Shown piece by piece: positions 19,901-61,970 of a DNA stretch of 64,000 bases (within the stretch, counting starts at the first letter, position 1; every line of letters starts with the position of its first letter). The stretch is from Chrysophaeum taylorii. Lineage: Eukaryota; Sar; Pelagophyceae; Pelagomonadales; Pelagomonadaceae. The position numbers were made by a program, and so were the translations under genes. The notes under the pieces are model-generated. The model was not told the DNA's origin. It did no database searches and saw only the letters and a program-made list of their open reading frames with translations. Location: NCBI GenBank assembly GCA_029834535.1, contig JAQMWT010000105.1:62001-126000 (forward strand), read 5' to 3'.

Positions 19901-19963
19901 ACCAATATTGCGTGGCTGGTGAAGTGGTTCACGTTCACTTGCTGAAGTGAATTCCCAACGCTG
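16929..19963 (+). mobile_element. hAT DNA transposon, copy 1 (family A)
   Basis: This is a 3,035-bp element. Its terminal inverted repeats begin CAGCCTTGGGAATTCACT on the left and CAGCGTTGGGAATTCACT on the right, read inwards. The flanks carry a perfect 8-bp target duplication, AAACACTT (16921-16928 and 19964-19971), which is diagnostic of hAT. Subterminal regions are packed with CACTTCA/TGAAGTG motifs. It lies 88 bp upstream of the ARPC2 start codon. The perfect duplication suggests a fairly recent insertion. It is nearly identical to copy 2 at 36444-39499. Confidence 0.93.
17051..19570 (+). pseudogene. hAT transposase, copy 1, interrupted frames
   Basis: Domains in order: an acidic N-terminus; a BED-type zinc finger at about 17300-17430 (VCILCWERLKV, then HFKAAHPEED); a segment with HDGGTLKDKKFKRQAIGLS near 17905-17960, typical of hAT transposases; the central helical part (IGLPWTISDEQWVALAEFEA) at 18490-18560; and a C-terminal dimerisation-like end near 19420-19550 (RPRETRFSSRADETDK in an alternative frame). 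No single frame spans them. Most frame changes are in the same places as in copy 2, which points to introns or to a shared broken ancestor. The protein would cut and move hAT ends; this copy is unlikely to do so without splicing. Confidence 0.75.
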
Positions 19964-19994
19964 AAACACTTGGATCTTTTTGGGGGGGGGGCGC

Positions 19995-24100: not shown

Positions 24101-24438
24101 TGTAGGCGTAAACTTCTGCTTCTTAGGGCTTACCCTACCTCTTAGGGCATACCCTACCTCTCAGGGCTTACCCTACCTCCTTTCCTCTGACGTCAATGCC
24201 ACCTGTATTGGCGACGTCACTTTATTTCCGTGACATTGCGTCACCCGTTTTTCTTCACCAAGGGTATCTTTTTATCATAAACGAACTCCCAACCTCAAGT
24301 TAAGAGGCTTGGCGAGTGACTTGTGTGTGGCGACGAACGGCCGGCCCCTAGCCTAGCACGCCGACCTCGAGTCTAGAGGTGATCGATGTGTCGGCGAAAC
24401 ACCCCTGAGCCGGGCCCGGAGCCGTTTCTCCCCCCACA
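24101..24438 (+). repeat. 5' LTR of gypsy copy A
   Basis: The LTR begins TGTAGGCG and ends near CCCCCCACA, aligning with TGTGGCGG...CCGCCATA of copy B and with the 3' LTR of copy A. It contains an internal tandem of TTAGGGCTTACCCTACCT (24120-24180). The downstream sequence (GTGGTGGAGGA) corresponds to the presumed primer-binding region and matches copy B. Confidence 0.75.
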
Positions 24439-27400
24439 AGTGGTGGAGGACACGAGACTACGACGACTACATCGGTCGCCGCGAAACGAGCGTCTTGCTG
24501 TTGCTCTACACGGTCGGAATCAGCGTGCACGCCTTGATCAAGCGTGCCGAAACGTTCCCGAACGACCGTATTTACGCGTGAGTATCTCCGCGTACTTTTT
24601 TCGTTTACGTACATTATCCTCGAATCGTACGAGCGCGCATCGTTCTCGGCGACGCGCTATCCGGATTTGCCGCCGAGAGTATCCTGTCCGCGGAGTGGTG
24701 TCGCGAACCACAGGCATCTGAAGTGCACGAAGCAGAAGAGGTTCCCCGCACACGTTTTAACTTTGTTTTGGTCGACGTGAGTACGCACGATTACCGATTG
24801 CGGATCGCGTCGTGGGCATTGTTGAGCCCGAATTTGCGCCGAGTTGAATACGGCACCTTCACTCTTTTGGAACTGTTCTGCACTCGGTCGACTTGGGCGA
24901 ACGGCGATGGCGGCAGAGTCGGCTGACGAGCCGGCGAACCGCCCCCCAACTCCAATACGTCAATTCGAAGACGAGAAGGTTGACGATGTTGAAGAAGTCA
25001 GAGAGAGAGATGATGATGATGACGACGACAACGACGGCGAATAGTCAAGCCGCCGACCGCCGACGGCGCCGCACCCAGGACCAGCTCCAGCGCCCGGCAG
25101 AGGTCCAGTTGACGACCAAGAAGAATACAACGCGATGGCGTACTTTCAAGCCGAGTTGGAAAGGACAACTGCGGCAAGGAAAGTTCTTGAAGCTGAGTTA
25201 CGACGGCAGCAAGAGGAGGATGAGGAGCTGCTGCGCCGACAAGAAATGGACGCGATTCGTGCAGAGCTGCAACGAGAACGAGAAAGGCTGCATGCACTCC
25301 GAGAAGAGTCCAATCGACGCCGCCGTGAGGCCGAACACAAGTCCGCAGATATGAACGCCGATGAGCCAAGAGGCACGGGTCGATGCCGTCGAGTTTCGGC
25401 GGAACAATCGGCTCGAGATCGTGACGCCGACGTTCCCAACGTAAGATCCACGAGCAACGACGATGAGGGCAAGGAGATGAAGTTTTTCAAGGGGTTATCC
25501 GAAGCGTTTTCGACAGCAATCACCAAAGCCATCACGACCTCTAGACGACGATCGAGCGGTGGACTGAAGACCGTAACCTTTAAATTGATTATTGATGGAC
25601 GTGATCAAGATCAATTCGACCTGGATTCGGCAGTCGTGATGACTGCGTTATCCGAGGAGCATTATAGCTTAGAGAAGCTGCGCTACCTTCTGCCGGTTCA
25701 TCTCCGCGACACAGTTGCATCTCTTTTCAGGGAACATCTGCTAGAGCATGAAAGTCATTGCGAAGAGCTGGCACATCCCTCGCAATTCTACCTGCGGTTG
25801 GACGTTGGCGACGAGGATTATGTATCAGAAGTCCGACGTTTACGGCAGTTCAATAAGCGTTTTAACCGCCGCGTTTTGGATTACTTCCGGTCTACCTGCC
25901 GACCTCCACGGATGCAAGAAGAGCTGATAAGAAAGTTAAGAGGGGTCACCCAGGACATGATTCCGAAGAAGAGTAGCGAACGCCGTGTGCATACCTACTG
26001 CACGAAATTTCAAAACGAAGCCCTGGCTTTTTGTGCCGCCTCTGGCCGCAGTGTCGATGATGTGGAGAACTTGGATCATTCGGCTCGCGGTTTGGAGTCG
26101 GAACAGCTCAGACGGAGGGTCCGCAACACGCGGAGCGGCAACCCAGACCTCTACACGACGTTCGCGGGGACGATGGCCTTGATCCTGCGGTTGGGAAAAT
26201 GACCATGTTTTGTCGCTGGAAGAGAGGAAAGAGCGTGGCCAGCGACCGCCTCTAAACCCGAACCGGCCGCCGCGAGTACGTGGAGCTCGTGCTATGGCGA
26301 CTTCCCACAGAGGACCAAAACCGTCGGAAGATGAGTATTCCAAGCTATTCGACGACCCAACGGCCTGGTTCAAATTGCCGTGTATGAGCTGTGGGTTCTT
26401 CTTGTCGACTCACGATGATGAAGCGAATGTAGATTATGTGCGTACCCGCGATCCGGATCCTTATAATTGCGCCATGTACGCGCGTATCGAAAATGGAGGA
26501 CAGCCAATGTCTCGCAAAGTGTGGGCGCGGCACCCTCGACGCAAGAAGGACGAGCCATCTAATCGACGCCGACACGAGAACCCGAAGCGCGAGGAGCCGC
26601 ACAAGGACAGAAGCAACGCCAACGCGACCATTGGCTCTGTTGATACGGCGCTGTTGAACGAGTTCCTCAAGGATTCCAAAGAGAATAAGGCGAATTCGAC
26701 GTTCTCAGCGAAATCTCGATCGTCGAGTCGGCGGCGCAGTCGCAGTCCCCGACGGCGCAGTCGCAGTCCCCGTAAACGCCACCCGCGCGATGAAGAGGAC
26801 AGGCACAGCGACCGATCCGATGCCGGCCGCTACTGGGAAGAGTCGGGCCATTCGAGTGCTACCTTTGCGTTTCTTCGGTTGTCTTCGGCTATGACGGTGC
26901 CTTATGGCGCTTATTTCTACCCGAACACGGTCACCGAAACCAACCAATCCACCCAAGTCCCCACAGGTTCAACCACCCCGGATAGCCTCGCTCCTCAACA
27001 GCCTCTCGCACTGGTTCCGATGGCTTCCGATGCGAGCACCGTTCGGAGGGATTCTACTCAGGCTTTCGACGAGTTAACAGGTGATGAACTGGAAGCTCCC
27101 TTGCGGTCCGCCGAGGACCAGTCGCTCCGAAGCGCCCCGCGCTACTGGACCGACGGCTCGGACTCCGGTGAAGAGTTTTTGGATCTTTTCGACCCAGCGT
27201 CCCGTTCTGCGGGACAACATGATTCGTCGTACGACGACTCCACTCGTGTTTTTGACGATGCTGCGCTTGATGCCATTGGTTTGGACTCGAATTCTCCTCC
27301 GGATGATCAGCCAGAGGCTGCTCCAATTCCCGAGTTGATTGATCACCCCTCCGAAAGCGAGCTCTCCGATGAATCCAGCTATGTTACCGACGATGGCCTT

Positions 27401-28803
27401 TTGTTGCTAGATTTGACGTCGAGGACGACGCCTTCCTTTTCTGCAGCCCACCCCCGACCAACCGTTTAAACCGCTTTTGATCACTTCGATCTCGAGTGCG
27501 ACGGCCAAGGAGGTAGATGTGGATGCGCGAGGAATATCGGACGAGATGCTGCAAGATTCGTTCATGGAATCACAAGATGACTCTCGCGTTTCGCCAACAA
27601 AGGATTGCCAGGCGCCGCCCTCGATTGATGAGAGCCGCGTGATTTGGGAGGAACCCGAGCGGACTATGGCCGATGAGAGAAGCCGCCGCCAATTGTCCAA
27701 TGTTGGTCGCGAGAGTGACGATGATGAGACGAAATCGAGTTTACAGAAGCTGTGGACAAGAGTGCAAACTTTCTAGCGAAGAAACCGCCAGAACGGAAAG
27801 AAGTTCGATTCCGGCGTGAAGGCCAGGAGCTTTTTGCTGATGAAGGGTTAATCGGAGTCTGGTTTTGCTCTCGACAAGAGGATGACGAGGGTCGAAGCAA
27901 TGGAAGAAGTCTGGAAGAGCTCCGATGTCGCAGTTGGGTGCGAAGAAGAGGCCGAAGCCCATTTGCTGAGCCCCGTCGAGCTGCCGCCGGAATGGGATAA
28001 GGAACCTCTAGACAAAGTTTTCGAGGATGAGACAGATTTTTGGACGACGGCATAATCCTTTATGTGGAGAATCGCGTCTGTGACAATGCCAGAGCCCGGC
28101 GACGCGAAGCCCAGGTCCAGATGTTATCAAACACGCTCTCGCCGAAGGACGGAAGGACGATCGAACAAGATCGAGTGACCATCAGCTGTTTAGACCCGGG
28201 TACGTTAACGTTCATGGGAGGTCAAATGGACAAGGATCGAGACAGACCGAAGTACGCTACGACACTTGGCGTGGATGATGTTTCCTATATCTGTCGAAAT
28301 TTGGCTGCCCAACTCGAGGATGAAGGCCTGATTATGGGCCAAGGAGAGCTAGCTGCCCGTGAAACGCACCCTCTATGGGTCAGGTTTGAATAAGACGACC
28401 ATCCATAAATGGATCGCTTTACGCGTTGCATTGGCTGACAAAGTCACAGCCCCGATAGTTGCCATTGTCGCTGATACCGACCGATTGTTCCTGCTTGGAG
28501 GCCGCGACCTGCGCGTGATGGGAGCTGTCGTGGATTACCCTCGTAATCGGATTTCCTTTTATCGGACTCGAGTCGCGTATGGTCGCCAGTCGGTGTCGAC
28601 GACAATTGGAGTACCACCAACCCTGCCTTCTCGGATGTCAAAAGAATCTGATAGACCGAAGTGATCGCCTATGCCGCGCGCACCCTAATGGTTGAGCCCG
28701 GTCGAACCTATAATGTTCCAGTTTCCCTTTCGCAGCCCTGCAACCCGGTCAAGTCTTCGTCTCGACGTCTGCGAGCTACGAACAGCTAGGACTTGTCAGC
28801 GGC

Positions 28804-30034
28804 ATGTGTTCTTCCTGTGACGAACAGGACAAGCGATCCGCTCGAGTGGCTGTGTTACAAGAAGTGCCGACCACTGTGATGCAAGGCGAGGTTATCGCTC
28901 TAGGCGACATTGTTCGGTACCAGGACGAGTTGAACGTGGAAGCAATCGAGGCTGTAACGAAGGAGCTTGGTGCCAGTTACGACAAAGGGAGTCTCTCCTT
29001 CACTGTCTCTGTCGAAAGTTATTTGAGTCACAGCGATGAATCCTCTCCGCCGATGCTGTTGGGAGCCACTTCGAATGGTCTTCGTTCGCCTGAGCCAGTT
29101 GCGTCTGCTCGAAAGGACGAGACAGCCGAGGACGATTTCGTTTACCGATCTGACGAGGACGAGCGGAGGTGTCGATACGCTACCAAAAGTGAGATTCGCA
29201 AGCGGTATGAAAAGGCCCAATGGCTGCCGATCACCTATCGCAACGTGGCTATGCTGTTCAGCGGACCCGGGGGATGCACTTTAGGATTGCAACGAGCTAA
29301 CGAGATGTGCGAGATGTCTTTTCGGGTCGTCTAAGCCCTCGACTCTCCCGAAACTGCCAACAAGATTCATCATGCGAACTTCCCGAATATCCCGATTGTT
29401 CAGCATACTCTCTGCGGTCGGTATGACACAGCCTTGCGTTTGATCAACATCATATTTGATAGGGAAAGAATGGTCATAATCGATGTGCATTGCTTCGCCG
29501 CCTTGCGTGCATTCCGCAGTGCAATCTGACTTTAAGGGATGTGGGCAAGGGTGTCACTGCAAGTCACAATGGACCATTAAACTGTGCAAGAAAGCCGGCT
29601 TTCTACTCTGGTTAATTGAACAAGAAGCCTCGATCATCTCCTACGTGGCCCAATTGCACTCTTTCGTTTATGTCGTCAATTTTTACGACATCACGCCCAA
29701 CCTGATGAGCTGCCGCGTGCGTTTGTTGATTTCCAGTCACCCGCTGCACCTGCGAGAAGCCCCAAAAAACTTGCTCGAACATGCACAAACCAAGTTCGCA
29801 GCACAGCCTGGCTATGGTGGCGAGCGACATTTAGTGCTTCAGATGAACGATCTTGGTTCGTCCCGAGACGCCACGGAGGCCGCCTACACGGTCACGCGTG
29901 TCCCTCTTCGAATGGGGCCCCATCGCTCCGAGGCCAAGCCGTTGACCCTCAAGATGACCACCGAATTGTTGACTATGCCGCCGGATTATATGATTGGGCA
30001 GGCTTATCCAAGACAGCCTCGCTCAAAAATCTAG
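28804..30034 (+). mobile_element. Cytosine-C5 DNA methyltransferase-like domain inside gypsy copy A
   Basis: Blocks in the order of the C5-methyltransferase family are visible: the AdoMet-binding motif I (LFSGPGGCTLGLQRAN) near 29254-29300; the motif II-III region with NFPNIPIV near 29380; the catalytic-loop motif SPPC near 29492; and the motif VIII-X region to about 30000 (KPLTLKMTTELLTMPPDYM). In this family the Cys of the PPC motif attacks C6 of cytosine. The domain lies between the protease-like and reverse transcriptase regions and belongs to the retroelement, not to a host gene. It is a fossil here. No such domain is seen in copy B. Confidence 0.72.
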
Positions 30035-33000
30035 CGTCTATCGTACCTCCAGACACTCTCGCTATCCTAGCTACCAATCTGCACAACTCCGTGTCCAAAG
30101 GATTCCATCAAATTGGTGAAATCTTACCGACCGCGATGAGTCCCGCAGACCAGCCTTCCGAGAGTTATTTGCAAGTCACCGACACTACTCTCCGGCACGT
30201 GCAAGTTCCACTGATGAACACGCGCATCCGTGTCGTCGTCGTCAAACAGGTGTCCGCTGCAGATCGACAGGATCGCACCAAGTGGGAACCTCCCGAAATA
30301 CCTTTGCTTCCGCCTACAACAGATACGTCGGGGACGTCCCATGCTTCTTCTTCTGCTGACCCCCCCCGACAACCCAAATTGGACGTTCCGCCGGATCCTG
30401 AGCAGAATAAGGAACCGAAAGTGAAGAGCGAACCAAGCGTGCGAGTCAAAGGCGAGAAGATTAACAAAAGAAGTGAGGTTCAAATATGAGGAAAAGTTCG
30501 ATGTGCCGTGGAAGAATGCACCGCTTGATACAGATGGCGTGCCTTTGCCGCAAACTCCCGAGCACGTTAAGGATAATAAAGAGATGAAAGTGAAGCTGCC
30601 GACGAAAGAAGAACTCAAGAAAGTCGTGAAGGAATTTGGAATACCGGACAATCCGCACCTGTGTGATGATGATGCAAAGCTGATGCTCAGTCACTGCGTT
30701 CAATATGCATGGGCATTTTCCGACCCGATCATGAGACCAGTGGACTCGCCGCCGGTATCTTTGCGTTTTAAGGACGCGAACCCAAGGCCGATCAAGATGA
30801 CGCCTTATCGTTTGATTCCGGCTAAGCTCGAGATTGCCTTCGCAAGCAGAATACTGTGTGGTGTCGCGATGGAGTGATCCCACTTGCGAATTCTCCAAGA
30901 GGATTTCCCGTGCTCGTGCTGCCCAAGAAAGGAGCTGAGATTGGGACGTCGAACGCTATTCGTGCCGCCGTAGACTTGCGACAGCTCAATGATCAGCTGG
31001 TCAATGATAGCTGGCCGACCATTCGACAAGATGATGCCTTAGCCTTTCTTGCGATGCGCCGCTGGAGAACATGTATTGACATACGATGGGGATATCATAA
31101 TCTTCGTTTGGAACCTGCAGCTCAGCACGCTGTCACGATGGTCAGCCCTCTTGGAGCCCGTAGTTTCCTACGCTTGCTTCTAGGAGTGAAAACCGCTGGA
31201 GCCCTCTTCTGCAAGCAGATGGCCAGCGATGTGTCGACATGGATGTACAAGGATTTGATTGCTTTCATTGGCGATACATCATGATGGGATCGGACGATCT
31301 CCACCGTCATCAACAAGTTATAATCGAAGTTTTGTGCCACTTGGCGCAACGAGGATATAGCGGTCGAACCGCGAAGTTTCACCTTCTCCAGGATGATATC
31401 GAGTTTCTGGGCCATATTTCTACTCCTGACGGTTTGAAGCCGAAGCCGAATCCTAAGACGCTGGAAGCACAGCAGAACATGCCAATTCCATTGACCCTTC
31501 CCAACACTTAACCAAAGACTCAGATGAGGCCCTTCATCGGCATGAGCAACTACTGCCGCCGCCGATACGTAGACGACGACTCCTAAATTGTGGAGCCGCT
31601 GAAACGGGTGTGTCTTGAAGGTGTACCGTTCAAGTGGACGCCCGAATGCCAGGGATACGATCATCGCTGCCTTAGTCGATTCCAGAGGAGTGTATCACCC
31701 TGACTACGACTCGCCGTTTCAGATCCGTTCGGGCGCGTCTAAAGATGGTCTTCGCGCCTACCTCTTCCAAATTGTCGAAGTCAAGGACGATAGTGGAAAG
31801 GTTTCGCGAGAGGAGCGAGTGATCGAGTATTGGAGCCGCGCTGTGCCGAAGGAGATGCGATATTACGAGCCCCGTAGGTTGGAGCTATTTGCAGTCATCC
31901 TCTCCCTGGAACATTTTCGAGCATACGTCGAAGGTCATAGGACGGTTCTCGAGACGGATCATCGCAACTTGATGTTGTTGCGGAAGGCTACTCACTCTTC
32001 TGGCCAACTCGCTCGATGGACGATGCGACTCGCGAACTTTGATCCCTAACTTGGATACCAAACTTGGATACAAGCCGGGAAAGTCGCCGGGAATGATGAT
32101 CCCCGACTGTCTCTCTCGCAGTCCCATAGATCAACATGCTATCGAGACTGACGAGTTCGGCGAGCCTCTCAATCACGCTTGTTTGGTGTTCCAAGAGTTG
32201 CCGAGACCTATCGATGAGAACGGAGTGCCCTTATCCGGATGCCATGTCATATTGTCGTTTATCACGACCGACTTAATGGAGGAGGAGGAAACAGACCCTC
32301 CAGACGATCCTATGTATTTAGCAGTCAGTCTCCAACGCGACGATGCAACGTCGGACGTGTCGATTACAGACCCAGCCGAGTCGGATGCTGCTGCTAACCG
32401 GGGGCACATCGATAAGAGACCCCTGACAATCTGACGATCGAGGAGATAATTCGAGAGCAGAAGGAAGGAAGATCCTACTTGTGAAAATATCCTCTCGCGG
32501 ATGGCTCAGGGCCACTCTCTCCGCCGTTATGGAGCGAACACCCGCTCCGAACGTGTAAAAGAAGTTCTCTACCGTGCTGCCGTAGATTTGCACCCAAGGA
32601 TTGTCGCTCCTGCTAAACTCCGTATCATTCGACTGTACCATGATAACACCGTCAACGGTGGTCACATTTGGTCGCGAGAGTACTGTTCAGTCCACATTGG
32701 AGCGCTCGCTTTTGGTGGCTGCACATGTCGAACCAAGTTGGAGCCTTTAATTATTGGCCCAATGTTTGGTGTGTCAGAAAGCTCGTACGCCCGAGCCGAA
32801 GAGAGCCGGTCTCCTCCTACAACAACCCGTGTATGATGGTGATGGTGCCGTTCTTTGTATGGATCTGTTCGGACCCTTGACGTATCTTATCGTGTTTTTC
32901 GACCCTTTCTCCCATTTTCTGATTTTGGACGTCCTTCACAACAAAACTGCTGAGTCTATTCTCGAATCCTTTGTCACCAACATACTGCTCAAGGGATATT

Positions 33001-33104
33001 TGCCTCAGTTGATCCGTACGGACAATGGGAAAGATTTTGTCACCAAGTTGATGGAGGAGTTTTGTCAGCTCTTTCTAAAATTCGCGATCAGACCAAGATC
33101 CGTA

Positions 33105-33299
33105 GAGATAGAAAATTTTTGAATTAGGGTTAGTACCCCCTATTCTAGGGTTAGTGCCCTTAACTTTAGTACCTTTTGATTTAAGAAAACGCGGTGTTTT
33201 TCACACCGGCTGTCCTCGTTCTAGGAGACAGATTCGAGGGCAGACTACCACTGCTCTCTCGCTCTGCTGAAGGGCAACACAGTTGAAATTACTGTTCTC
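33105..33299 (+). mobile_element. Small TA-flanked element (MITE-like), copy 1, inside gypsy A
   Basis: The 195-bp segment interrupts the retroelement relative to copy B. Its ends are GAGATAGAAAATT and AATTACTGTTCTC, imperfect inverted repeats, flanked by TA on both sides (33103-33104 and 33300-33301). A second copy with the same ends lies at 54024-54390. TA flanks and short imperfect termini suggest a Tc1/mariner-type non-autonomous element. There is no coding capacity. Confidence 0.65.
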
Positions 33300-34346
33300 T
33301 AATCCCTTATCATGCCCAATCGAATCCAGCTGAGCGTGTTGTGAACCGCTTTATCGAGGCTTTTTTTCGTGCCTGCCGTCAGTGCCGGAATATTACTGAC
33401 TGGCCCGCTTTCACTCACAATGTCGCATTTTGCTACAATCGCAAGTTCATTCCGGGCACCGAGATATCATGCTTCGACTCAATCGCCAGGCCACGATGTG
33501 GATACTAGCAGGCTGCCTAAGACTCGTACGGATGCGCTGACTGAAACCCGAGAGGCGTTGAAGTTTTACACACAAGTTTTTGTCAGAGACGCCCGTGACA
33601 AGGCTCAGCGTAAGCAGAAGTTGGCCTACGATGCAGATCATGTGGATTGTCGAATACGATGAAGGAACCCATGTTTAGCTGTACATTCCTCACGCTCAGA
33701 ACAAGTTGCGTCCGGAATGGCGAGACCCGTTTCTGTTATCGTCGAACGACTTTCGCCTGTCACCTACAAGAATGAGTCTCTTGACTCACCACGGCAGCGA
33801 CGCTATGCCCATGTCCAGCAGATCAGACCTGTTATGGTCCCTCCGATAGTCGATCGCGCAATTCCAAAGCCGAAAGAAACTTTCCGCGACGACTACAACC
33901 ATGGCAAGTTCGTTGTTTACCGGATTCCCGATCACAAGAAGTCCAATTGGCGCAAGAAGATTTATGTCGCCGAAGTTTATGAGCCTTACGAGAATGAATG
34001 ACCCTGTTGCACTTCTACTACTCGGATCTTGGTCCACAACACAAAAAAGTTTCGTAAGCCTACTTCTCATCTGTCTACCCGCAAGCTCAAGCCAGAATAC
34101 GACAAGGATTTTGACGGTAAAAGTTTCACCGACAAGTCCAAAGTCACCGCTAGTACTACGCCCTGTGTCACCGACTTTTCTCCGCACGAGATTGATGTGT
34201 TAGTTCCCAAGTTCGCGCAGCGGTCGCGTTCCTGAGGGGAGCCTCTGTCGTCAAGCGCACGTACAACCGAATTAGGTCCCGAGATGCTCAAGATGCAAAG
34301 GCTCTCTCTCGCGCTGAGGCTAGCTCGAAATCTCACTCGCTCGTCC

Positions 34347-34650
34347 TGTGGCGGAAACTCGCTCCTGCTTCTTTAGGGGAAGGCTTACCCTACCTCCTTT
34401 CCGTCAATGGTGCCGCCTGTATATTGGCGACGTCAGTTGTTTATTTCTGTGACATTACGCCACTCCCCTTTTCTTTCTTTCTTTCTTCAGCAAGAGTATC
34501 TTTAGCATAAACGAAGAAGTCCCAGCCTCAAGGTGAGAGGTTTGGCGAGCGAGTTGTGTGTGGCGACGAAGGGCCGGCCCCTCGGCTAGCACGCCGACCG
34601 CGAGTCTTCTAGAGGTCATCGGTGTGTCGGAGCCGTTTCTCCTGGGCGGC
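34347..34650 (+). repeat. 3' LTR of gypsy copy A
   Basis: The LTR begins TGTGGCGGAAACTC and shares ordered blocks with the 5' LTR (CTTACCCTACCTCCTTTCC, ATTGGCGACGTCA, ATAAACGAA, TGTGTGTGGCGACGAA, AGCCGTTTCTCC). The right edge is approximate. It ends about 130 bp before the start codon of the TALE-RING gene. It holds a short TTTC microsatellite. Confidence 0.75.
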
Positions 34651-34781: not shown

Positions 34782-35553
34782 ATGGTGAAGAAGGAGCTGG
34801 AGAGCTGGGAGGAGGAGCCGCAGAGAGCACGGGGTGGGTGGGTGTTTGTCGTTTTGTGGGACGCTTCTTTAGGCCGGTCGCGGCGCGAACTTCCGGCGCA
34901 CGCCGTCACAATCTTAAAGGCGTGGCTTGTGAGCCCAGAGCATTTTCACCATCCGTAAGTTGTATGATCGTCCGTGGTGGATCAAGTGTTGTGATCGCCG
35001 CCTGTCTGTGGTAGCCGGCTAATTATCGTCGGGAGTCAGCCCGCTGATCGTGTGCTAGGTACCCGACGGCCCAAGACCAGGCGCAGTTGATGGTGAGGTT
35101 TGAGTTATATTTTTGAGTTGAACTCAGGCGGAGACGGGTATCGACAAGAAACAGCTGAAAAATTGGTTTACGAACGCGCGGAGACGAATCTGGAAACCGC
35201 TCGTAAAGCACAAGCTTCAGCAGGAAGAGCCGGACGAAAGGGGATCAAACAACTCGATGGCCTCGCGGCGGACGAACTCTAGTTTTTTGGATCTACTCGC
35301 GACTGCCGTGGACGGCGAGAACTTTCGCGCTCAGGAACAAAGGGACGACGAACCAGTCCGCGTCTCGCCCACCACCGCCTGCGCCTTTTGCCTCCGGGAC
35401 CGCGTCGACACCCAGCTCATGCCCTGCAAGCACGTCTTCCACGGCTGCTGCCTCCGCCCCTGGCTCGAGGCCACCGTCACTACCCCATGCTGCCCCGTCT
35501 GCTCCGTCGCGATCGCGAACTGTGTCCTCGCCGATACAACGCACGACGCCTGA
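34782..35553 (+). CDS. TALE homeodomain protein with C-terminal RING-H2 finger
   Basis: Four exons give 197 residues in one frame: 34782-34833, 34873-34954, 35059-35092 and 35128-35553. The introns are GT-AG: 34834-34872 (39 bp, in frame, possibly retained), 34955-35058 (104 bp, donor GTAAGT) and 35093-35127 (35 bp). The homeodomain runs from RRELPAHAVTILKAWL through the TALE loop HFHHPYPT to helix 3, LKNWFTNARRRIWKP, with the diagnostic WF.N.R core. After a short basic linker comes a RING-H2 finger: CAFC, CKHVFHGCC and CPVC supply all eight metal ligands. TALE proteins are DNA-binding regulators; RING-H2 fingers are usually E3 ubiquitin ligases. The start is the first ATG after an in-frame stop at 34770. 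An upstream exon cannot be excluded because TTGTAG at 34767-34772 could be an acceptor. Confidence 0.85.
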
Positions 35554-36125: not shown

Positions 36126-36443
36126 GACCGTGACAAGAGGTCGGCTGCGCACGTACTGGAAGTGGTGCTGGACACTCCTACAACTGTTGATGGCCTCCTC
36201 AACGGACGACGAAACGCGCTTCAACTCCGCGGGACTACGCAACAACTCAGGTGACAAGCATGACAAGTAGCGACCAAAGATCCCGATTCTTAAGACGGAC
36301 GACAACGAATTTCAATCACGCCCTTTGAAAAGGTCTTCCTATCTGAGCGTTGCGTCAAGTGGGTTCAGTCTCCAGACGCTCAAGACTTCTCGGACAATAT
36401 TCTTCTTTGGGTCGAAGACGTCCTCGCTGTCGTGGTGATTTTT
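36126..36443 (+). other. Left flank of hAT copy 2; possible interrupted gene
   Basis: The last 130 bp before the transposon read as a protein-like frame (FEKVFLSERCVKWVQSPDAQ, then NILLWVEDVLAVVVI) that runs straight into the element. No matching continuation could be confirmed on the right flank, so whether the transposon split a gene is unproven. Confidence 0.3.
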
Positions 36444-39400
36444 CAGCGTTGGGAATTCACTGGGCTCACTTCATTTCACTTCACTTCACTTCACCGAATT
36501 TTTGTTGTCCGAAGTCCAATGTTCACTTCATATTCATCCACTTTGGCTGACGGCCTGACCCTGACCCCGTCTGCTGCTGATGAGCCAAGTCGAGCCGGGC
36601 TACCTCGAGGTGGAGGATACTGTTGATGATGAGGAGGAATTTAAACGCGGTGTTCACAGAAGGAGGAAGTTCACAAGAACGACGCGATGGCGATGTTGTG
36701 ACGTCGAACACGCTTGGCACCAAAAGTGGACGATCAACAACCAGGTTTTTCTTTCCAAGGTGTGGTGGTGGGACTGCGTGCGTCGACCGAAGGAAAATCA
36801 TCCTGACTACCGCGTTGACCAGTGGGAAGGCGACGACGCATGTGTGTATCCTGTGCTGGGAGCGCCTGAAGGTGGTGACGAGAGACTTCAAGAAAGGCAC
36901 GTGGCAGACAGACGACCATGCCCTCTTGGGGCCGACCCACTTCAAGGCTGCGCATCCGGAGGAGGATTCGATTCGACGACCTGGGACGTCAACAGCTCAC
37001 CAAGAAACAGAAGACAGACCAAGAAAAGGAGGAGGGCGTTTTTTATGACGGCCGTGGGCGTTGTGGCAGCCTCGAAGGGTAAATCGGATATTACGAGATA
37101 CTTCATGGAACAGGCAAAAAAGCACTCTTCCCTGATGGCGGCGTTCTCGGCTCGGCACTACGTGAACACGTCGCAGCGGATTTTTTCCAAGCGCACCTTT
37201 GACTGACGACGAAGATCATCGCAACCTTCTTGAAGCGTATTACCGCGGCGGTGCCGGGAAAGGCAAGCGCGCCCTCGTTCATGACTCGAAAAGCGCTGTT
37301 TGAATGGGTGGACTCTGAATATCGTTGCTTTGTTCGGATCTTGAAGCACGTCGCTAAGGAGTGTTATGAAGCGGCTTTTGGCAAACCACTCGCCCAGGTA
37401 CTGCATGACGGCGGGACACTCAAGGATAAGTTCAAGCGACAGGCCATTGGCCTATCCTTCATCTGGCCCGATTGGAGTGGCGTTGAGACGGTGTTCCCGC
37501 GTGGGCCTCGTTCCAGCTGACGACGGAACCGATTCCGGCACGTCTTCTCTGCTCCGTTCTGTGGTCGCGGAGCGTGCGGGAATCGATATCGATTTGGCGG
37601 CTCCAACCATTGTTCACGAGACCGGGCTCCAAAATCGGCGTCGCCGAAGAATTTTTTGTTGAGGTCGAAGCGTGTGTCATGCATGATATCTCAAGAAACT
37701 CGGCAGCGGCATGTGGCTACTTGACACGATCCAGAGGCAAGCAGGTGATCAATCCATTCCCAGCTGGCCAGGAGCTGCTGAACAGTGGTGGCCACGATGG
37801 AACCAAGTTCTTTTCTTGCGGCACACACGTTTGAAGGATCTGCATGCGCTTTTGCCATTACAGCCGGGGAAATAAATCGCCGAAGCTCAAGCTCGACCTC
37901 AATAAGACGAAGTTCCGGGCGCGCTACCAACTTATTCGTTCGTTGCTGCGTATGCACCACGTGCTCAAACTGTACACGGCTACCAACATAGGACTCCCCT
38001 GGACAATCAGTGATGGGCAATGGGTGGCGTTGGCTGAATTCGAGGCGATTTTTGCTTTAGCGGATGACCCCGTTGTTTTCGTGCAACACGAACACTTATA
38101 CCTGGGGGCGTGCGCCGCATTGATCAAACACAACATGATCGAGTCTCTGCGAGCTGGGACGCTAGAAGTCATTGATCTCCCGAACATAACTGCGAAATCC
38201 ATGCCGCGTGAGACTGTCGATGTTGACGACCTCAGCGAGATCGGCAAAAATCTGTCTTGGGCGGGCTATACTCGAATGTGAGCGTCGGTTTTGCGGGAAT
38301 AATGAAAACTACGTGCGTCACTTCGACTACGAATTCGACGATCGCGAGTTGATTGCCTTCCTTCTTGACTTTCGGACTATCAACTGCAGGCACCTGTCGT
38401 CCTCCAATCAGAGAGCTCGGGCCAGGAAGTTGCTCACGGAAGAATATGTGATTTACGCACACGGACTGCATTCCACCACGAAAAAAAAGGCAAAGACTTC
38501 CTCCGAGCCTGCGCCGCCCTTCGAGTCTGCGCCTACCCGCAATCTCTTGGCGGCACTCGACGCACCCGACGCTTGGGACGACGACATTAGTGGCGACGTG
38601 CCTTCTTTTGCTATGCCTGAGAACCAGAGATGCCCGATTTCAATGTGGAGGAGTTTGAACAGGTCTTCACTCAATGGATCATCAGGCTCTCGAGATCGCG
38701 CAACTGGAAGGAGCATTATCCTGAGCTTGAGAAGAAGGATGAAGTCGGCTTCACAACAGACCTGGCTGCTGTGCTCGACGTTGGGCAAGCTGTATCGACC
38801 GCTCACCAAGGAAGGAGCAGTATGGGTTCGTTTCTTCCGGACGTGGCGAGAGCCTGCCTCTAAGGATTTTTTCAATTGGTAGTACACATGGCGCGCAGAG
38901 CTACTTTGAGCGCTGCCTGAGCATGGGAAATCTTGTCTCCCGACCGAGGGAAACACGTTTCTCGTCGCGCGGACGAGACGGACAAAGTTGTTGCCAGCAT
39001 ACTGCGCACGAACAACAAGAGCTTCTTCATTGCGGCGGCGGCGGCGGCCCGGATTAAGTACAGGGACCTCGTGTGGCACGAGACCGAGTTTTTCAAAAAC
39101 GCCGGGAGCACCATGATTCCTTCCCCGAAGGCTCTTTGGAGATGGATGTTGATGAGGAAGAACCAGACGAAGATACCGAGGTCGTTCGTTCGTTCGTTCA
39201 CGTCGCCTAAAGTAAGAAACAGTGAACACCATCCACGGTAGTGACCCCTCCTTCGCCCCGAATTTAACGCGAATGAATCTAAGAACACCATACCTAGGCA
39301 ATGGCGCGCGGGGGGCACGGAACTGACGGGGCAGGGACCGGCGCTGGCGTTACAAATTAAAAAAAAATGGCGTTCACTTCACCAAGGTCCACTTTAATTA

Positions 39401-39499
39401 ACCACGTAGGGCGACGTGTTCACTTCAAATCACTTCACCAAAATTGCGTGGCTGGTGAAGTGGTTCACGTTCACTTGCTGAAGTGAATTCCCAACGCTG
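36444..39499 (+). mobile_element. hAT DNA transposon, copy 2 (family A)
   Basis: The element is 3,056 bp with terminal inverted repeats starting CAGCGTTGGGAATTCACT at both ends. The flanking 8-mers TGATTTTT (36436-36443) and AGATCTTT (39500-39507) agree at six of eight positions, so the target duplication is imperfect or eroded. The sequence is nearly identical to copy 1 along its whole length, with small indels of mostly one to a few codons, plus isolated base changes. Confidence 0.9.
36580..39230 (+). pseudogene. hAT transposase, copy 2, interrupted frames
   Basis: It has the same domain order as copy 1: an acidic start (MSQVEPGYLEVEDTVDDEEE), a BED zinc finger near 36830-36960 (VCILCWERLKVVTRDFKKG, then HFKAAHPEED), a block with VLHDGGTLKDKFKRQAIGL near 37400-37460, a central helical part (RFRARYQLIRSLLRMHHVL-type, 37915-37970), and a C-terminal dimerisation-like block near 38920-39000 (PRETRFSSRADETDKVVAS). 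No frame is continuous. The tracts are slightly longer here than in copy 1. The shared breakpoints with copy 1 argue for introns or for amplification of an already non-autonomous copy. Confidence 0.75.
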
Positions 39500-39507
39500 A
39501 GATCTTT

Positions 39508-40362
39508 TTGGTTCCCTCATCACAAGTTACTAAAGAGGTTGACCACTCGTCGGGACACGACTAGTTTGAACCCGATTGCCTCAATGTCAACAACAACATG
39601 TTGTCCGGCGGCGGCAAGACGCAGCGCCTCCTCCGAACCTCGATGAAACTCGATGCGGGCTGCATTGGGCCCCATCATCCGGCCATCGTCGAACTCGAGG
39701 TCGGCAGCGGCAAGCGGCAGAAGGTGGTCCTGTCATGGAACGTCGTCTCGAGCCCGGCCGAGAACAGCTAATGATATTCCAGCCGGGTGATCCGCCGCCA
39801 TTCAAGCACCCCGACAGGAAACCCGAGGCCTTCCGTCGTTGGTTTGATTAAAAAAAAAAAAGGTAAGCTTGGTTGGATCTTTCGATACGAATCTTCCGCA
39901 GGCAGTTGGTTGGGTTGGATTTAGCGGACCTCCTCGGTTATTAACCGGAAAAGTCTTTCCTCGAGATTTACGGTTAATAATAACCGGTTAATAATTGTCG
40001 TCAGGGGGGGTTAATGATCGGATGACGTTTTTCCCCGGACACGTCGTGCCACGTAAGCTTACCTCCCAATAATTTTGGACACCACCTCGCCCCACCGCCC
40101 CGGCGCGCACCCCGCCCGCCCCGCCCCGGGCCTTGAGCGCTTGACTCTCACCTCGCAACCGCAATGCAGGTGGTAAGAGGAGGAGATTCTTATGCGCGGG
40201 GGAAAGATGGGGTATGGGGCGGGGAAGGGGAGGGCGTTGTGGGGCGAGGGTGGGTGCATCTTTTTATTCTCTTTCTTCTCCTTGCTGCTGCAAGGCTGCT
40301 AGAGGTCATCCTCATCTGTATCGTCGGCGGCAGCGACGCGCGCGGGCGGCAGCTCGACGATC
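39508..40362. other. No gene confirmed; AT-rich inverted motifs
   Basis: At 39580-39770 a plus frame (MLSGGGKTQRLLRTSMKLDA, ending VSSPAENS) looks weakly protein-like and may be a host gene remnant. At 39938-40010 the motif GGTTATTAACC and its complement recur (TTATTAACCGG, CCGGTTAATAA), giving a palindromic AT-rich patch. The rest is low-complexity GC- and purine-rich sequence. Confidence 0.35.
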
Positions 40363-54390: not shown

Positions 54391-54466
54391 TATCCAGGGT
54401 GTCCGGCTTATCCATCCAGGGTGCCCAGCCTGTTTAGGGTATCCAGTGTATCCAGCGTGTCCTTGG

Positions 54467-54791
54467 TGTGGCGGCAACTCCTGACCGCTAAGCCTAAGGC
54501 TTACCCCCCCTCTCTCAAGGCTTGATACCCGTTCAACGGGACACCTTTCCCGATCTTAGTGACATCATACCTCTCTTTTGTGAGAAGCATTCTTGCTGTA
54601 TTCTTGTAGTTTCCTTGCTATCATATTCCATCTCTCCATCTTGTTGAGAGGCTTGGTGAGCGTGAGCAAGGTGTGTGGCGAGCTTATCCGACCCCGCGTC
54701 CGTGTTTTCCTCGTTCAGTGAGGTCTCGGACGAGTCGGTGAGTACCCCCTTTGTCACCCGGGGGTCGGGAAGTTTTTTCTGTGCCGCCATA
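54467..54791 (+). repeat. 5' LTR of gypsy copy B
   Basis: 325 bp, TGTGGCGG...CCGCCATA. It is followed by CGTGGTGGAGGA, the presumed primer-binding region shared with copy A. Confidence 0.92.
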
Positions 54792-57700
54792 CGTGGTGGA
54801 GGATATGAGATCGTGCGACTACATCGGTCGCCGTCGAGCGAGTGCTGCCGTACGTGTTGTATTTCGAGGTCCGGATTTGTACGTGCGCCCTGATCAAGCA
54901 CACGGAGTTCCATTGGACCGGTTTGCGTTGAGAATATACGCGAACGTTGTTTGTGTTCGTACGATCCGAGTGACGACGAACACGCGTGCGAGTTGGAATC
55001 GCAGCGCATTCTCCCGGGAATTGATTTTGGTATAGCTGAACGGTGGAAGCTGTTTAGCGAGTGGGATCGCTACCCACGGGCATTTTTGAATTGCCAGCGG
55101 ATTGGAATTCCGTGAGTGCTGTTTTTACAGCGACAGATAGCGTTGTTGGAATCAACGTGAATTACTTCGAGTGATCGGATCCGGACGTGTTTCGAGATTC
55201 TTGATCGATATTTGATACAGTATGGAGATAAACGCAGACGTGCGTGAGGAAGAATCTCCTCCAGTTCTTCCCGCCGCCCCTGAGATAGGCCGCGAGGAAG
55301 GTGAATTAAGAGAGGCCAAGGCAGTCGACGTTGCTGACGTGCCCCCTGATGTGCCTCCGGATGCTGCCATTTTTTCGCCGTTGAGTCCAACGACTCCGGA
55401 TCGTGGCGAGCGTGTTACTATTGAGCGCGGATCTGCAGCCCGAATTCGACTTCGTGAAGACCTCGAGCGGAGACGTCGCGAAAATGAACGATTAGCTGAG
55501 CTTTTGCTCGTGAAAGGGCTGAAGCGAAAGAGGAAGCGGCTCGACGAGAAGTTGATATGCTCAATGATGCATTACAGCAAGAGATCGAGACCTTGAAGAC
55601 CCTACGCGAAGAGGTTGAACGATTTCGTCGTGAACGAGATGAATTGTTAGCCGAACGTACGCGTCGGGAGAGTAGCCGCGAACGACCCGTGAGTCGACCC
55701 GAACCGGAAACGCCCGTGAGGCCGCCTGAACCGGAAAGGAACACTGAAACGGGGAATGAACCTCCGCCCCGAGTCGATACGGAGAATGAGGGTAGGGCGG
55801 ACATTGAGAATGAAAGTACGAAAATTTACGGGAATTATCGCGGGGAATATCGCAGACGGTTGCCAACGCCTTCGAAAAGGGCAACTTGAGCCGATCCCAT
55901 CGACCCACTTCCAGTTTGAAGCCTGATACCTTCAAACTCGTCATCGACGGCCGAGACCAACGGCAATTTAATTTGGATTCGGCGGCGATGATGCATACTT
56001 TAGCAGATGACCATTACTCGGTCGAATATTACGTTATTTACTACCTGTGCATCTACTGGACACCGTTGCACCAATTTTTGAGGAACACTTGCAGAAATAC
56101 GAGGAGCTCTGCGATGAGCTACCACACGGTCCGTCGTTTTACTTGAAATTAGATATTGACGATGAAGAGCATGGAGTCTCGGTTCGTCGTATCCGTCGTC
56201 TTAACAAGACGTACTGCGACAAGATTTTGGATTATTTTAGATCGACTTGCCGACCTCCACGCACGCAGCAGGAGCTGCTTGACAAACTGCGGAAGGTCAC
56301 CCAGGCTTCAGTTCCGAAGAAGTCTGGGGAGCGGCACGTCCAAACGTACTGTACCCGATTCCAATCTGAAGCCTTGGAGTTTTGTTCCGTGTCCAGCCGC
56401 ACGATGGATGATGTCGATATCCTCGACCAGCTTATCAGTGGATTGACGTCCAAGGAGTTGAGGACCCGTGTGCGGACTATGAGGAGCGGACATCCTGATA
56501 GTTACGTGACTTTTAAGTCGATGGTAGCGCTTATTACGCGGCTCGAGAACGACTTACGAAAGTTGATGGAGAAGGAGAAGGACCAATGCCCACCTAATCC
56601 GAAATCGAATAAACCGCCGCGATGGCGCGGAGTTCGAGCTATGGCCTCCGATCAACAAGCCAAGCAAGATGCGGATAAACCGTCTGGGAATACGGACCCG
56701 CTGATTTTACGAGATCCTTTTTTGTGGGGCAAGCGAACGTGCCCGCACTGTGGGTTCTTCTGGACCACCCATGATGAAGATGAACACGGAAATCGCGTAG
56801 TTTGCAACCGCGATCCGGATCGTCATTACTGTGCGATGTGGAAAAGAATTCGTAAGCAGAAGAAGCAGCCCACATCGCGGTCCGATTGGGCAAAGCGTGA
56901 TGATGCATCTAATGCGAACGCCACGCACGGATCGGAGCCTTCTCATGAAATTCAAACGGCCGTCATCGATCTTGGAATCACAATGGCGACCATGGTGAGC
57001 GAGGTCAGAAGCATCAAGGATACTACGTCGTTTTCTACACGACAGCGAGACGGACGATCACCTTCTAGACGATCGTCACGCCGACATCGAAGCCAGAGCC
57101 CTAATCGAAAAGCCCATACTGCTCAAGACAGCCCGAGTCCTTGCTGTCACCGGAGCTCTAGTCACAATTCGCGCCGGCGCCGACGTCATCGACATTACGA
57201 TGACGAGTATGACGGAGGCAGATATCAGGATAGTTCGGGACATTCGAGCGCATCTTTCGCGTTCAAATCTTTATGCGACGCGCCGCCAATGTCGGGGGTT
57301 GTCTTTTACCCGACGGCGCGCCCTGCCCGAGTCTCCGACGATGTTGCCGATGTCGCTGTGACGAGCAGCCATCGTTTGCAACAGGAGCAACATACCACCA
57401 ACGCTCGGATCGTTCGGTGGCCTTCTACATCGTATGTGGAAGCAATGTCAGATGCTACTTGGGATTCTCCGCACTATTGGGAAGACTCAGATTCGGAGAC
57501 CGACGAACCCATGCCGCAGGTTCCAGTGTCCCCCCATTCGTCAATGTGCATGTCTTGCAGGGCAGTTCACGATGATGACGTTAGACCTTTTGAGTTGACG
57601 TCGGGGACGACGTCTTCTTTTCCTACGCCCCCCCCCGAGACCGTTTTAGCCGTTTTAGCCGATGTTTTAGCCGATACAGTTTTGGTCGCAGCAGAGCAGA

Positions 57701-60700
57701 CCACAGCGGCGCCGATGGAGGAGAAGTTGACGGGAATGTCCGATTTGATGGACGAGAAACGACGATTACCAGAAGTTCCTATGCTTCCGCTTCCAACTGA
57801 TGCGCCGGGGACGGCTCATGTTTTTTCTGCTGCCCCCCCAGACAATCAAAAGTGGACGTTCCGCCGGATCCTGAACCTGAACAGGAGCCGAAAGTAAGGA
57901 GCGAGCCGAATGTGCGCGTCAAAGGTGAAAAGATCAATAAGAGCCACCCTGAGGTGAGGTTCAAATACGAAGAAAAGTTCGATGTGCCATGGAAGGATGC
58001 ACCGCGCGATGCGGACGGTGTACCGTTACCGCAGATTCCCGAGCACGTCAAGGACAATGATGCGATGAAAGTCGTAATTCCGACGAAGGAAGAAGTTGAA
58101 AAGGTTGTTCGAGATCTAGGAATTCCCGACAACCCGCATCTGGATGATGATGCGAAGATGATGTTGAGCCATTGCGTGCAATACGCGTGGGCTTTCTTTG
58201 ATCCGATTATGAGACCCGTGGACTCGCCACCGGTTTCTCTACGCTTTAAAGACGCAAACCCACGACCGATCAAGATGACGCCGTATAGGTTGACGCCAGC
58301 AAAGCTCGAGTGTCTCAGAAAGCAGATCACTGAGTGGTGTCGCGATGGAGTCATCCGACCGGCGAACTCTCCGTGGGGATTTCCTGTACTGATGCTGCCT
58401 AAGAAAGGAGCAGAGGCCGGGACGTCGAATGCTTTTCGTGCTGCAGTTGACTTGCGTCAGCTCGATGATCAGCTGGTCAATGACAGTTGGCCGAATATTC
58501 GTCAAGATGATGCTTTGGCTTTTCTTGCCATGCGCCGTTGGCGGACGAGCATTGATATTCGATGGGGTTATCATAACTTGCGTTTGGACGCCGCTGCTCA
58601 GGACGCTGTTACTATGGTTAGTCCACTTGGAGCCCATAGTTTCTTGCGCTTGCCTCTAGGAGTAAAAGCAGCAGGAGCTCTCTTTTGTAAGCAGATGGCT
58701 AGCGATTTGTCCACATGGATGTATAAGGACTTGGTCGCGTTTGTCGACGATATTATGATGGGATCGGATGAACTCCATCGACATTTACAAGTTTTGATTG
58801 AAGTGTTGTGCCATTTAGCACAGCGAGGATATAGTGGACGAACTTCGAAGTTCCACCTCCTCAAGGATGAAATCGAGTTTTCGGGACATATTTCGACTCC
58901 GGAAGGCTTGAAGCCGAATCCCAAGACGTTAGAAGCGTTGCAGCAGATGCCGATTCCCGGTACGTTGCCCAATACGTCCCCGAAGACCCAGATTCGATCT
59001 TTCATTGGTATGAGCAACTATTGCCGCCGATATGTGAAGAATTATTCGAAGATTGTGGAGCCGCTTAGGCGATTGTGTCTTGAAGGCGTTAAGTTTGAGT
59101 GGACGCCTGAGTGCCAAAAGGCATGGGACGCGATCATCGAAGCTTTGGTGGATTCTCGTGGAGTTTATCATCCTGACTACGATCTTCCTTTTCAGATCCG
59201 CTCGGATGCTTCCAAGGATGGTCTGGGTGCGTATCTTTTTCAGCTCGTGGAAATCAAGGACGAAACTGGCAAGGTGACACGAGAGGAACGAGTAATTGAG
59301 TATTGGAGCCGAGCTGTGCCGAAAGAGATGCGGAACTATGAGCCTCGCCGGCTAGAGCTCCTGGCAGTTATTCTGTCTCTTGAGCATTTCCGCTTGTATA
59401 TTGAAGGTCACAAGACGATCCTTGAAACAGATCATCGCAACTTGACGTTTTTACGAAAGGCGAAGCACTCGTCTGGGCAGTTGGGTCGATGGGCGATGCG
59501 GCTCGCCAATTTTGATCCTGAATTGGGTTACAAGCCAGGGAAGTCGCCGGGAATGAGCATCCCTGACTGTCTCTCTCGCAATCCTATAGATCATGTCATC
59601 GAGACGGACGAGTTTGGTGAACCCTTGAACCACGCGTATCTAGTGTGCCAAGAACTCCCTCGTTCTGTTGATGATGAAGGAGTACCTTTACCTGGGTGCC
59701 ATGTCATTCTGTCGTTTGTTACGACTGAGTTGCCTGTGGAGGAAGAGGAAGAGGAAGAAGACCTCGATGATCCGATGCAATTGGTCACGTCTCATGCTAC
59801 GAAACAACGTCAGAAGCAACGACTTCAGACCCAGCCTAGTATTTTCCGTGATGCCGATGATTACCAAGAGCACATCGACAAGATTTCGGATAATTTGACT
59901 TTGGAAGAGATAGCCAAAGAGCAGATCACTGATGCTACTTGCGAGGACATTCGTTATCGCATGGCTCAGGGCCATTCTCTTCGTCGGTACGGAGCCAATT
60001 ATCGCTATCAAGTGGTGAAAGGAGTTCTCTACCGTGCCGCACCCGACTTGCACCCGATGATAGTCGCACCCCGAACTTTACGGACGCGCATCATCCGATT
60101 GTACCATGACACACCTCTCAATGGTGGTCATATGGGTCGTCAAAGTACAGTGCAGTCGATACTTGAACGTTTTTGGTGGCCTCATATGTCTAATGAGGTA
60201 GGTGCTTTTGCATTGCTGGTTGCATAGTGTGCAAGAAAGCTCGTACGCCTGAACCAAAGAGAGCAGGTCTGCTTCAGCAACCGGTGTATGATGGTGATTG
60301 TGTCGTACTTTGTATGGATTTGCTTGGACCTTTGCCCAGTGCTGGTCCCGAGACATATTTCATCGTCTTTTTTGATCCATTTTCTCATTTCTTGATTCTT
60401 GACGTACTACACCATAAGACTGCTGAGTCAATCCTCGAGTCTTTTGTCGCGAATATATTACTCAAAGGTTATCTACCTCAGAGGATTCGTACCGACAATG
60501 GGAAAGAGTTCGTCAACAAGTTGATGGAAGAGTTTTGTCATCTTTTCAACGTTCGGTATAGTACCACGATTCCGTATCATGCTCAGGCTAATCCTGCGGA
60601 AAGGGTCAACCGCTTTATCAAGGCTTTCCTCCGTGCGTGCCTTCAAAACCGCAAGATCACGGAATGGCCCGAATTCGCGGAGTACATTGCTTTCTGTTAC

Positions 60701-61648
60701 AATCGTAAATTTATTCCGGGGACTCAGATCTCACCTTTCATGCTTCGTCTTAACCGGCAGCCTTTATTGCCAACCGATTACACGATCATGGATCTTGATG
60801 TCCACCGCCTGCCGAAAACTCGCTCCGATGTTGTGGTAGAGACTCGCGAGAGGCTGAAGTTCTATACCGCTACGGCGAACGAAGCTCGTGAGAAGGCTCT
60901 TCGTAAACAACGTCTCGCCTATAATGCGGACCATGTTGATGTGGAGTATGAAGAAGGTTTACATGTTCTGCTCTACATCCCTTTTCTTCAGAACAAGCTT
61001 CGACCGGAATGGCGCGGTCCATTCGTTTTCTTGGAACGCTTTTCCCCGGTCACTTACAGGATTGAGTCTCTTGATTATCCTCCCGATCGCCGTTGCGTTC
61101 ATGTTAGTCAGATTACCCCTGTGATGGTTTCTCCAGTGGTCGATCGAGCTGTGCCCAAGCCCAAGGAGACCTTTCGGGATGATTACAAGCATGGTAAGTT
61201 CGTTATTTTTCGGATTCCGGATAATAAACGGTCCGATTGGCGAAAGAAGATTTATGTCGCTGAAGTTTATGAGCCCTATGATTTTGTGAATGATCGAGTC
61301 GCTCTGCATTTCTATGCTGATCTCGGTCCCCATGACAAGGTTTCTTATTACAAGCCTACTTCACATCTCTCTACTCGCAAGCTTAAGCCGGAATACAAGG
61401 ACGTGGACGGTCGCAGTTTCACCGACAAGACCAAGGTCAACAACAGTACCTCTCCTTGTGTCACCGACTTCGGTCCGCATGAGATCGATGTGTTGATTCC
61501 TAAGTTCACTCTGCGTGGTGGACGCGTTCCTGAACGTGTCGTTGAACGTGCCTACAAGAAGATTCGTTCTCGAGATGCTCATTCAGCCAAGGCTCGTGCT
61601 TCTCGCCGGACTCGCGGAGGGCAGCTCGTGTTCTCACCAGGGGAGTCC

Positions 61649-61970
61649 TGTGGCGGCAACTCCTGACCGCTAAGGCTTACCCCCCCTCTCTCGAGGCTTG
61701 ATACCCGTTCAACGGGACACCTTTCCCGATCTTCTTAGTGACATCATACCTCTCTTTTGTGAGAAGCATTCTTGCTGTATTCTTGTAGTTTCCTTGCTAT
61801 CATATTCCATCTCTCCATCTTGTTGAGAGGCTTGGTGAGCGTGAGCAAGGTGTGTGGCGAGCTTATCCGACCCCGCGTCCGTGTTCTCCTCGTTCAGTGA
61901 GGTCTCGGAAGAGTCGGTGAGTACCCCCTTTGTCACCCGGGGGTCGGGAAGTTTTTTCTGTGCCGCCATA
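61649..61970 (+). repeat. 3' LTR of gypsy copy B
   Basis: 322 bp, with the same ends as the 5' LTR and about three base differences plus two small indels. It is followed by the target duplication CTTGG. Confidence 0.92.

Follow-up and report, generated by a model that had tools for sequence, protein, structure and literature searches.

A decayed candidate C5 cytosine methyltransferase module in a Ty3/gypsy retrotransposon family of the alga Chrysophaeum taylorii

In 2011, Iyer et al. reportedly linked DNA methyltransferases (DNMTs) to reverse transcriptase (RT) domains. Three retroelement groups that carry such an enzyme, KnitGypsy-Dnmt3, SymbioDIRS-Dnmt3 and SymbioLINE-Dnmt, are described by De Mendoza et al. 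2018 (PMC5890265), who also report CG methylation in yeast by SymbioDIRS-Dnmt3 enzymes. The same paper calls the Klebsormidium element Gypsy and presents Symbiodinium Copia elements without a DNMT, and PMC12344493, referring to the 2018 paper, places DNMT3 in 'LTR Copia and DIRS' elements of streptophytes and dinoflagellates. As described in PMC5890265, KnitGypsy-Dnmt3 of Klebsormidium nitens is like the element reported here in having a C5 DNMT inside a gypsy Pol, several copies and purifying selection; its DNMT groups with Dnmt3. It is set apart by its DIRS-like repeat structure and the few copies reported, whereas the elements studied here have plain LTRs (copies A and B), a 5-bp duplication (copy B), an E-Q-E motif VI, another host lineage and far more copies. 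SymbioDIRS-Dnmt3 and SymbioLINE-Dnmt of Symbiodinium likewise illustrate many retroelement-borne DNMTs in one alga, but they are DIRS and LINE elements, in contrast to the LTR gypsy and copia elements here, and SymbioLINE elements are CpG-depleted, which the gypsy elements here are not clearly. A DNMT-bearing gypsy is thus already known from Klebsormidium, and the present element is a variant in another host lineage. A literature search, a weak one with subscription papers mostly outside it, found no ochrophyte or haptophyte for which DNMT-bearing elements had been reported.

The window, that is, the whole 64-kb (64,000-nucleotide) stretch of DNA analysed, belongs to a genome of 70.8 Mb in 697 contigs. 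The host is photosynthetic, with 84 light-harvesting matches. In PDB searches, one antenna protein (L066) matched 'FCP6 and FCP10' best (E 3.4e-67) and then mostly fucoxanthin-type and related chlorophyll a/c proteins; another (L065) matched four long LHCI chains of 9vfj first, with the same kinds of protein after them. These mostly fucoxanthin-type matches agree with the proposal of the first-pass annotation that the host would be a lineage other than dinoflagellates and charophytes, and they suggest an ochrophyte or a haptophyte.

Copy A (approximately 24165-34630) is an old, decayed Ty3/gypsy LTR element with broken frames (Table 1). Positions 28804-29220 form a linker upstream of the DNMT proper (~29221-30095), and the module lies between both LTRs in copy A and also in a related copy (C235), the contig of which stops within the 3' LTR. 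The placement of the module between protease-like and RT regions, first proposed from the letters and open reading frames, was recovered by tblastn in copy A. A relative (L064) holds DNMT, RT, RNase H and integrase in one stop-to-stop frame of 3,063 aa (RVT_1 at 1997-2161), and so has the Ty3/gypsy order of RT, RNase H and integrase in a single frame; the label 'protease-like' was assigned by eye from D-T-G in this relative. Between DNMT and RT of copy A lies a run of C (30360-30367) whose length differs among copies (L001-L020), a variation that may reflect slippage, a programmed shift or sequencing error. Within the integrase region, 33075-33232 was left uncovered by tblastn with the relative's frame and is perhaps a small insertion. 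Copy A is flanked by a direct duplication of ~3.1 kb (16927-19983 and 36442-39511, 91.5% identity), and a TALE-like homeobox and a RING-like stretch were recognized by eye 3' of it (35120-35550, plus strand).

Table 1. Features of gypsy copies A and B and motif positions of the copy A module (window coordinates).
Element	Feature	Position	Strand	Basis
Copy A	5' LTR, aligned part	24165..24394	+	77.8% identity to 34382-34630
Copy A	Primer-binding site, resembles tRNA-Ala end	24441..24457	+	TGG-led sequence at 24441; tRNA-Ala(AGC) gene in L068
Copy A	Two gag-region ORFs (355 and 419 aa)	25135..27469	+	No Pfam match; gag named by position
Copy A	Protease-like region, broken	28133..28595	+	tblastn with L064 frame; no Pfam match
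Copy A	Putative C5 methyltransferase module, pseudogene	29221..30095	+	Motif places; tblastn; PF00145 in related copies
Copy A DNMT	Motif I VAMLFSGPGG	29245-29274		
Copy A DNMT	NFP	within 29374-29394		
Copy A DNMT	CIASPPC	29486-29506		
Copy A DNMT	Motif VI-like WLIEQEAS	within 29600-29632		
Copy A DNMT	Motif VIII-like SCRVRLLISS	within 29690-29737		
Copy A DNMT	PLTLKMTTELLTMPPDY	29939-29989		
Copy A DNMT	Last conserved stretch	to ~30095		
Copy A	Reverse transcriptase region, broken	30832..31652	+	tblastn with L064 frame
Copy A	RNase H region	31654..32079	+	tblastn with L064 frame
Copy A	Integrase region, broken	32042..34247	+	tblastn with L064 frame
Copy A	3' LTR, aligned part	34382..34630	+	Alignment to 24165-24394
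Copy B	Target-site duplication CTTGG	54462..54466, second 61971-61975	.	Flanking sequence
Copy B	5' LTR	54467..54791	+	320/324 ungapped letters identical to 3' LTR, 9 gap columns
Copy B	Primer-binding site	54794..54811	+	18 nt complementary to tRNA-Ala(AGC) 3' end with added CCA
Copy B	gag-region ORF, 616 aa	56047..57897	+	No Pfam match
Copy B	Deletion junction, 7-bp microhomology	57769..57775	+	Alignment to C235 copy
Copy B	ORF with RT, RNase H and integrase zinc-binding domain	57852..60227	+	PF00078, PF17917, PF17919, PF17921
Copy B	Integrase core ORF	60227..61666	+	PF00665
Copy B	3' LTR	61649..61970	+	LTR alignment

Motif I, NFP, SPPC and the C-terminal pattern, reported in the first-pass annotation to follow the family order, were all located in copy A, whose DNMT is a pseudogene: a stop interrupts the frame within 29320-29352, and the frame shifts before SPPC. 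The profile search that it had recommended was negative for the three pieces of the copy A module, which had no Pfam match even at E 10, and positive for related copies; the methyltransferase identity of the copy A module is therefore drawn from the PF00145 matches of these relatives. PF00145 was found in all 11 aligned gypsy-1 modules (the family of copy A) at E 0.01 or better (best 2.1e-6; profile positions 2-52 in the member shown). Measured against the curated cut-off of 22 bits, the trimmed gypsy-1 module scored 26.6 bits, two open copies were just above it (22.8 bits in L012 and 23.4 bits in L013), and two long gypsy-1 frames fell below it (19.2 and 18.4 bits). Seven aligned sequences, two gypsy families included, were invariant in motif I and in A-S-P-P-C, which contains the catalytic P-C of motif IV, as well as in the glutamate of motif VI and a single arginine of motif VIII. 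Motif VI reads E-Q-E in the gypsy modules (E-E-E in L077) instead of the usual E-N-V, with the glutamate kept. In gypsy-1, this glutamate stands 38 residues past the cysteine, presumably the spacing of M.HhaI. With PF00145 in the related copies and the module inside the LTRs of copy A and C235, the sequences point to a C5 methyltransferase carried within a Ty3/gypsy element, as had been suggested.

A survey of other genomic copies, also recommended at the outset, showed that many of them carry the module. A DNA search of the contigs with gypsy-1 gave at least 42 rows (40 of 356 candidates scored) and a protein search at least 117 matches (117 of 1,061 candidates scored), which form one group at ~87-100% and another at ~78-81% identity. 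By our own count, 94 of the 117 listed matches have no in-frame stop, and open frames reach 3,067 aa. Among the 121 matches listed in a PF00145 search of the genome, by our reading, 2 were host genes, 56 fell in the profile range of the copia module described below and 63 were others. Two loci (L013 and L019) were 99.6% identical over 3,895 columns at nearly equal contig positions; such near-duplicate contigs are probably haplotypes, so independent insertions are fewer than matches.

Between the gypsy-1 subfamilies, dN/dS was 0.055-0.083 in 25 of 25 pairs, at dS values (1.5-2.3) near saturation; these pairs combine stop-free copies, five of 12 from the first subfamily and five of six from the second. 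Within subfamilies it ranged from 0.068 to 0.72 (20 pairs). When one pair was divided by domain, dN/dS was 0.060 for the DNMT, 0.017 for RT, 0.034 for RNase H, 0.045 for integrase, 0.059 for the integrase C-terminal part and 0.17 for the linker, indicating that the DNMT is held about as tightly as integrase and less tightly than RT. The gag region gave 0.35 on a poor alignment, and dS of the protease-like region was saturated (one pair). The gypsy-1 DNMT module is under strong constraint, and we regard its assignment as a constrained C5 methyltransferase as very nearly certain.

In a second family, gypsy-2, whose module is 39-40% and whose RT is 61% identical to that of gypsy-1, PF00145 was found in three of three loci (L074, L075 and L077) as two stretches, with a best protein E of 2.6e-10 and 40.7 bits for the L075 module. 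The best stretch covers profile positions 7-75 in L074 and L075 and 260-321 in L077, and a search with the gypsy-2 module gave at least 123 matches (122 of 912 candidates scored). The gypsy-2 and gypsy-1 DNMTs are homologous, and the module would have been present before the two families split. The gypsy-1 module alone matched nothing in the protein databases at E 0.001; a profile of gypsy-1 and gypsy-2 together retrieved one metagenomic relative (6.6e-36) and one weak PF00145 protein (3.2e-3), and the viral and prokaryote contigs searched contained no relative of the module. P0001, a metagenomic protein of 322 aa, has the module and the E-Q in common with the gypsy DNMTs, so that the clade is probably not confined to the Chrysophaeum taylorii genome. 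Structure predictions of P0001 gave a mean pLDDT of 31.0 alone and 32.8 with the window pieces. A tree of 10 rows, with no Dnmt3 or Klebsormidium sequence among them, grouped gypsy-1, gypsy-2 and P0001 (98/96). A host DNMT2 (L021; PDB DNMT2, E 3.9e-39) and a host DNMT5-like gene with an SNF2 domain (L053) lay outside the groups of the retroelement modules, which were the only ones supported; both belong to the same C5 methyltransferase superfamily as the modules, but are host genes.

A DNMT also accompanies a different LTR superfamily in this genome. At L055 (604-6207, minus strand), a 1,868-aa frame holds PF00145 at 355-492 (E 5e-7) and RVT_2 at 1686-1848, domains that identify it as a Ty1/copia element with its own DNMT; the linkage of DNMT and RT within one frame comes from this single copy. 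By tblastn, the copia module is held by 28 of 28 loci (L023-L050). PF00145 was matched by 10 of 10 aligned copia modules (best 3.4e-10), and the copia DNMT keeps P-C-Q and E-N-V, with dN/dS of 0.09-0.63 (66 pairs among 12 copies, two with a stop). By eye, the copia DNMT is preceded by a protease-like region (L-I-D-G-G-A). Some 300 more unannotated residues follow the module; a late motif X-like LANAVP, recognized by eye, may mark the end of a DNMT whose target region is very large. We also considered, and dropped, an oxygenase-like H-x-D in the linker of the copia element, as it was changed in 1 of 10 copies and had no Pfam match. The window contains a copia RT ORF (RVT_2; 52084-53382, plus strand), but tblastn at 1e-5 with the L055 frame, which includes the DNMT, found nothing in the window. 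PMC12344493 is similar in naming a DNMT in a Ty1/copia element in print; it names DNMT3 in Copia, whereas the copia module here has no profile similarity to the gypsy module, both alignments being shallow. Separate capture would follow from this lack of similarity, although a common but very distant origin of the copia and gypsy DNMTs is possible. On balance, we lean slightly towards at least two captures of cytosine methyltransferases by LTR retrotransposons in one alga, in Ty3/gypsy before the split and in Ty1/copia, each directly after the protease.

Copy B (54467-61970) is younger than copy A and has the Ty3/gypsy hallmarks of LTRs, a tRNA primer site and a 5-bp target duplication. Compared with C235, it lacks 2,559 bp (including one copy of the 7-bp microhomology), which amounts to the protease-like region and the DNMT together. 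At least 19 places, copy B included, span its junction (41 rows; 40 of 889 candidates scored), a count that gives no proportion. Derivatives without DNMT and protease-like region have thus multiplied and would borrow proteins, the DNMT not being needed in cis. Decayed gypsy pol fragments also occur at 42482-43188 (minus strand) and 45292-47141 (plus strand). Elsewhere in the window, a protein of 1,153 aa that combines RAP with FAST kinase-like domains (2594-6055, minus strand) has a middle encoded by 21 copies of a 111-bp tandem repeat, and a 568-aa ORF (62230-63936, minus strand) shows a weak protein-kinase match; Rfam and tRNA scans of the window found none.

We consider the following reading, taken as a whole, likely. 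The window interval represents a decayed C5 cytosine methyltransferase module of a Ty3/gypsy family in a chlorophyll-c-type alga. The module would be made within the Gag-Pol polyprotein and cut out by the element's protease; lying in the Gag-Pol frame, it should enter the particle and travel with RT. It may then methylate cytosines of new cDNA (or RNA) before integration and so serve the element population; the gain may be that of looking like self, shielding or self-restraint. Since elements that lost both the protease-like region and the DNMT have spread, the module must be capable of acting in trans, or of being dispensed with. Methylation of cDNA or element RNA, the simplest reading, is favoured by the constraint, the kept residues and the presence before the gypsy split; for the narrower proposition that the module acts on the element's own nucleic acid, we put the chances at about even.

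That the module methylates RNA (element genomic RNA or tRNAs) and not DNA seems unlikely to us. It would suit the top PDB hits for the gypsy-1 profile, two DNMT2-type tRNA methyltransferases (E 0.047 and 0.05), the alignment across motifs I-VIII between the combined gypsy-1 and gypsy-2 profile and the host's DNMT2 (E 1.7e-4, probability 49%) and the lack of a clear CpG scar. These matches are weak, however: a full-length DNMT2 match failed, with gypsy-1 covering ~60 residues at E 0.047 against the E of 3.9e-39 for the host gene, and once gypsy-2 was added the best PDB match was a bacterial-type cytosine methyltransferase (E 0.67). The primer is moreover tRNA-Ala, which is not known as a usual DNMT2 substrate, which also weakened the idea of a DNMT2-like enzyme tied to the tRNA primer.

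Similarly small is the chance we give to a module that restrains its own element, marking new copies for silencing by host maintenance methylation (DNMT5) and thereby sparing the host. This possibility is named in PMC5890265, and both the host DNMT5-like gene with its SNF2 domain and the multiplication of DNMT-less derivatives are in its favour, but the DNMT-bearing families are abundant (at least 117 and at least 123 matches) and the gypsy sequences show no clear CpG decay. CpG observed/expected was 1.19 (copy A), 1.21 (copy B), 1.19 (C235) and 1.35 (C5) in gypsy. Six stretches of host DNA, of which two overlap, gave 1.17-1.44; with all but one of the four gypsy values below five of these six, gypsy is at most slightly deficient in CpG. 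Transition frequencies between gypsy-1 S1 copies were 0.028 for CG, 0.033 for CT, 0.026 for CC and 0.020 for CA. Neither CpG observed/expected nor transition contexts between copies thus gave a clear CpG mutation scar in gypsy-1. In gypsy-2 and in one copia pair, transitions were most frequent at CG (11 of 162 and 27 of 453, respectively), although the counts are small, and two copia ORFs had CpG at ~1.0 with TpG and CpA at 1.14-1.22. The earlier suggestion that the element marks or protects its own copies found no backing here, given the lack of a clear scar and a window copy that is dead. Least probable, and in our view quite improbable, is that the module is no longer an enzyme but is kept within Pol for structural reasons or to bind DNA or RNA, as the change of E-N-V to E-Q-E and the short, near-cut-off PF00145 match of gypsy-1 might suggest, since seven sequences of two families show no change in motif I, in A-S-P-P-C or in the glutamate of motif VI, which in gypsy-1 presumably keeps the spacing of M.HhaI.

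On the preferred reading, a methyltransferase acting on element nucleic acid, elements thought to be silenced by host methylation would carry a methylation enzyme themselves. If the two captures are true, they would imply strong selection for a methyltransferase that travels in the particle of LTR retroelements, and an orphan clade of enzymes, marked by E-Q in motif VI, that lives in retroelements. With one more host lineage, two superfamilies of LTR elements, high copy numbers and DNMT-less derivatives alongside, this genome would be a natural experiment, in which copies that have the module and copies that lack it may be compared in the same cell for their methylation, activity and spread.
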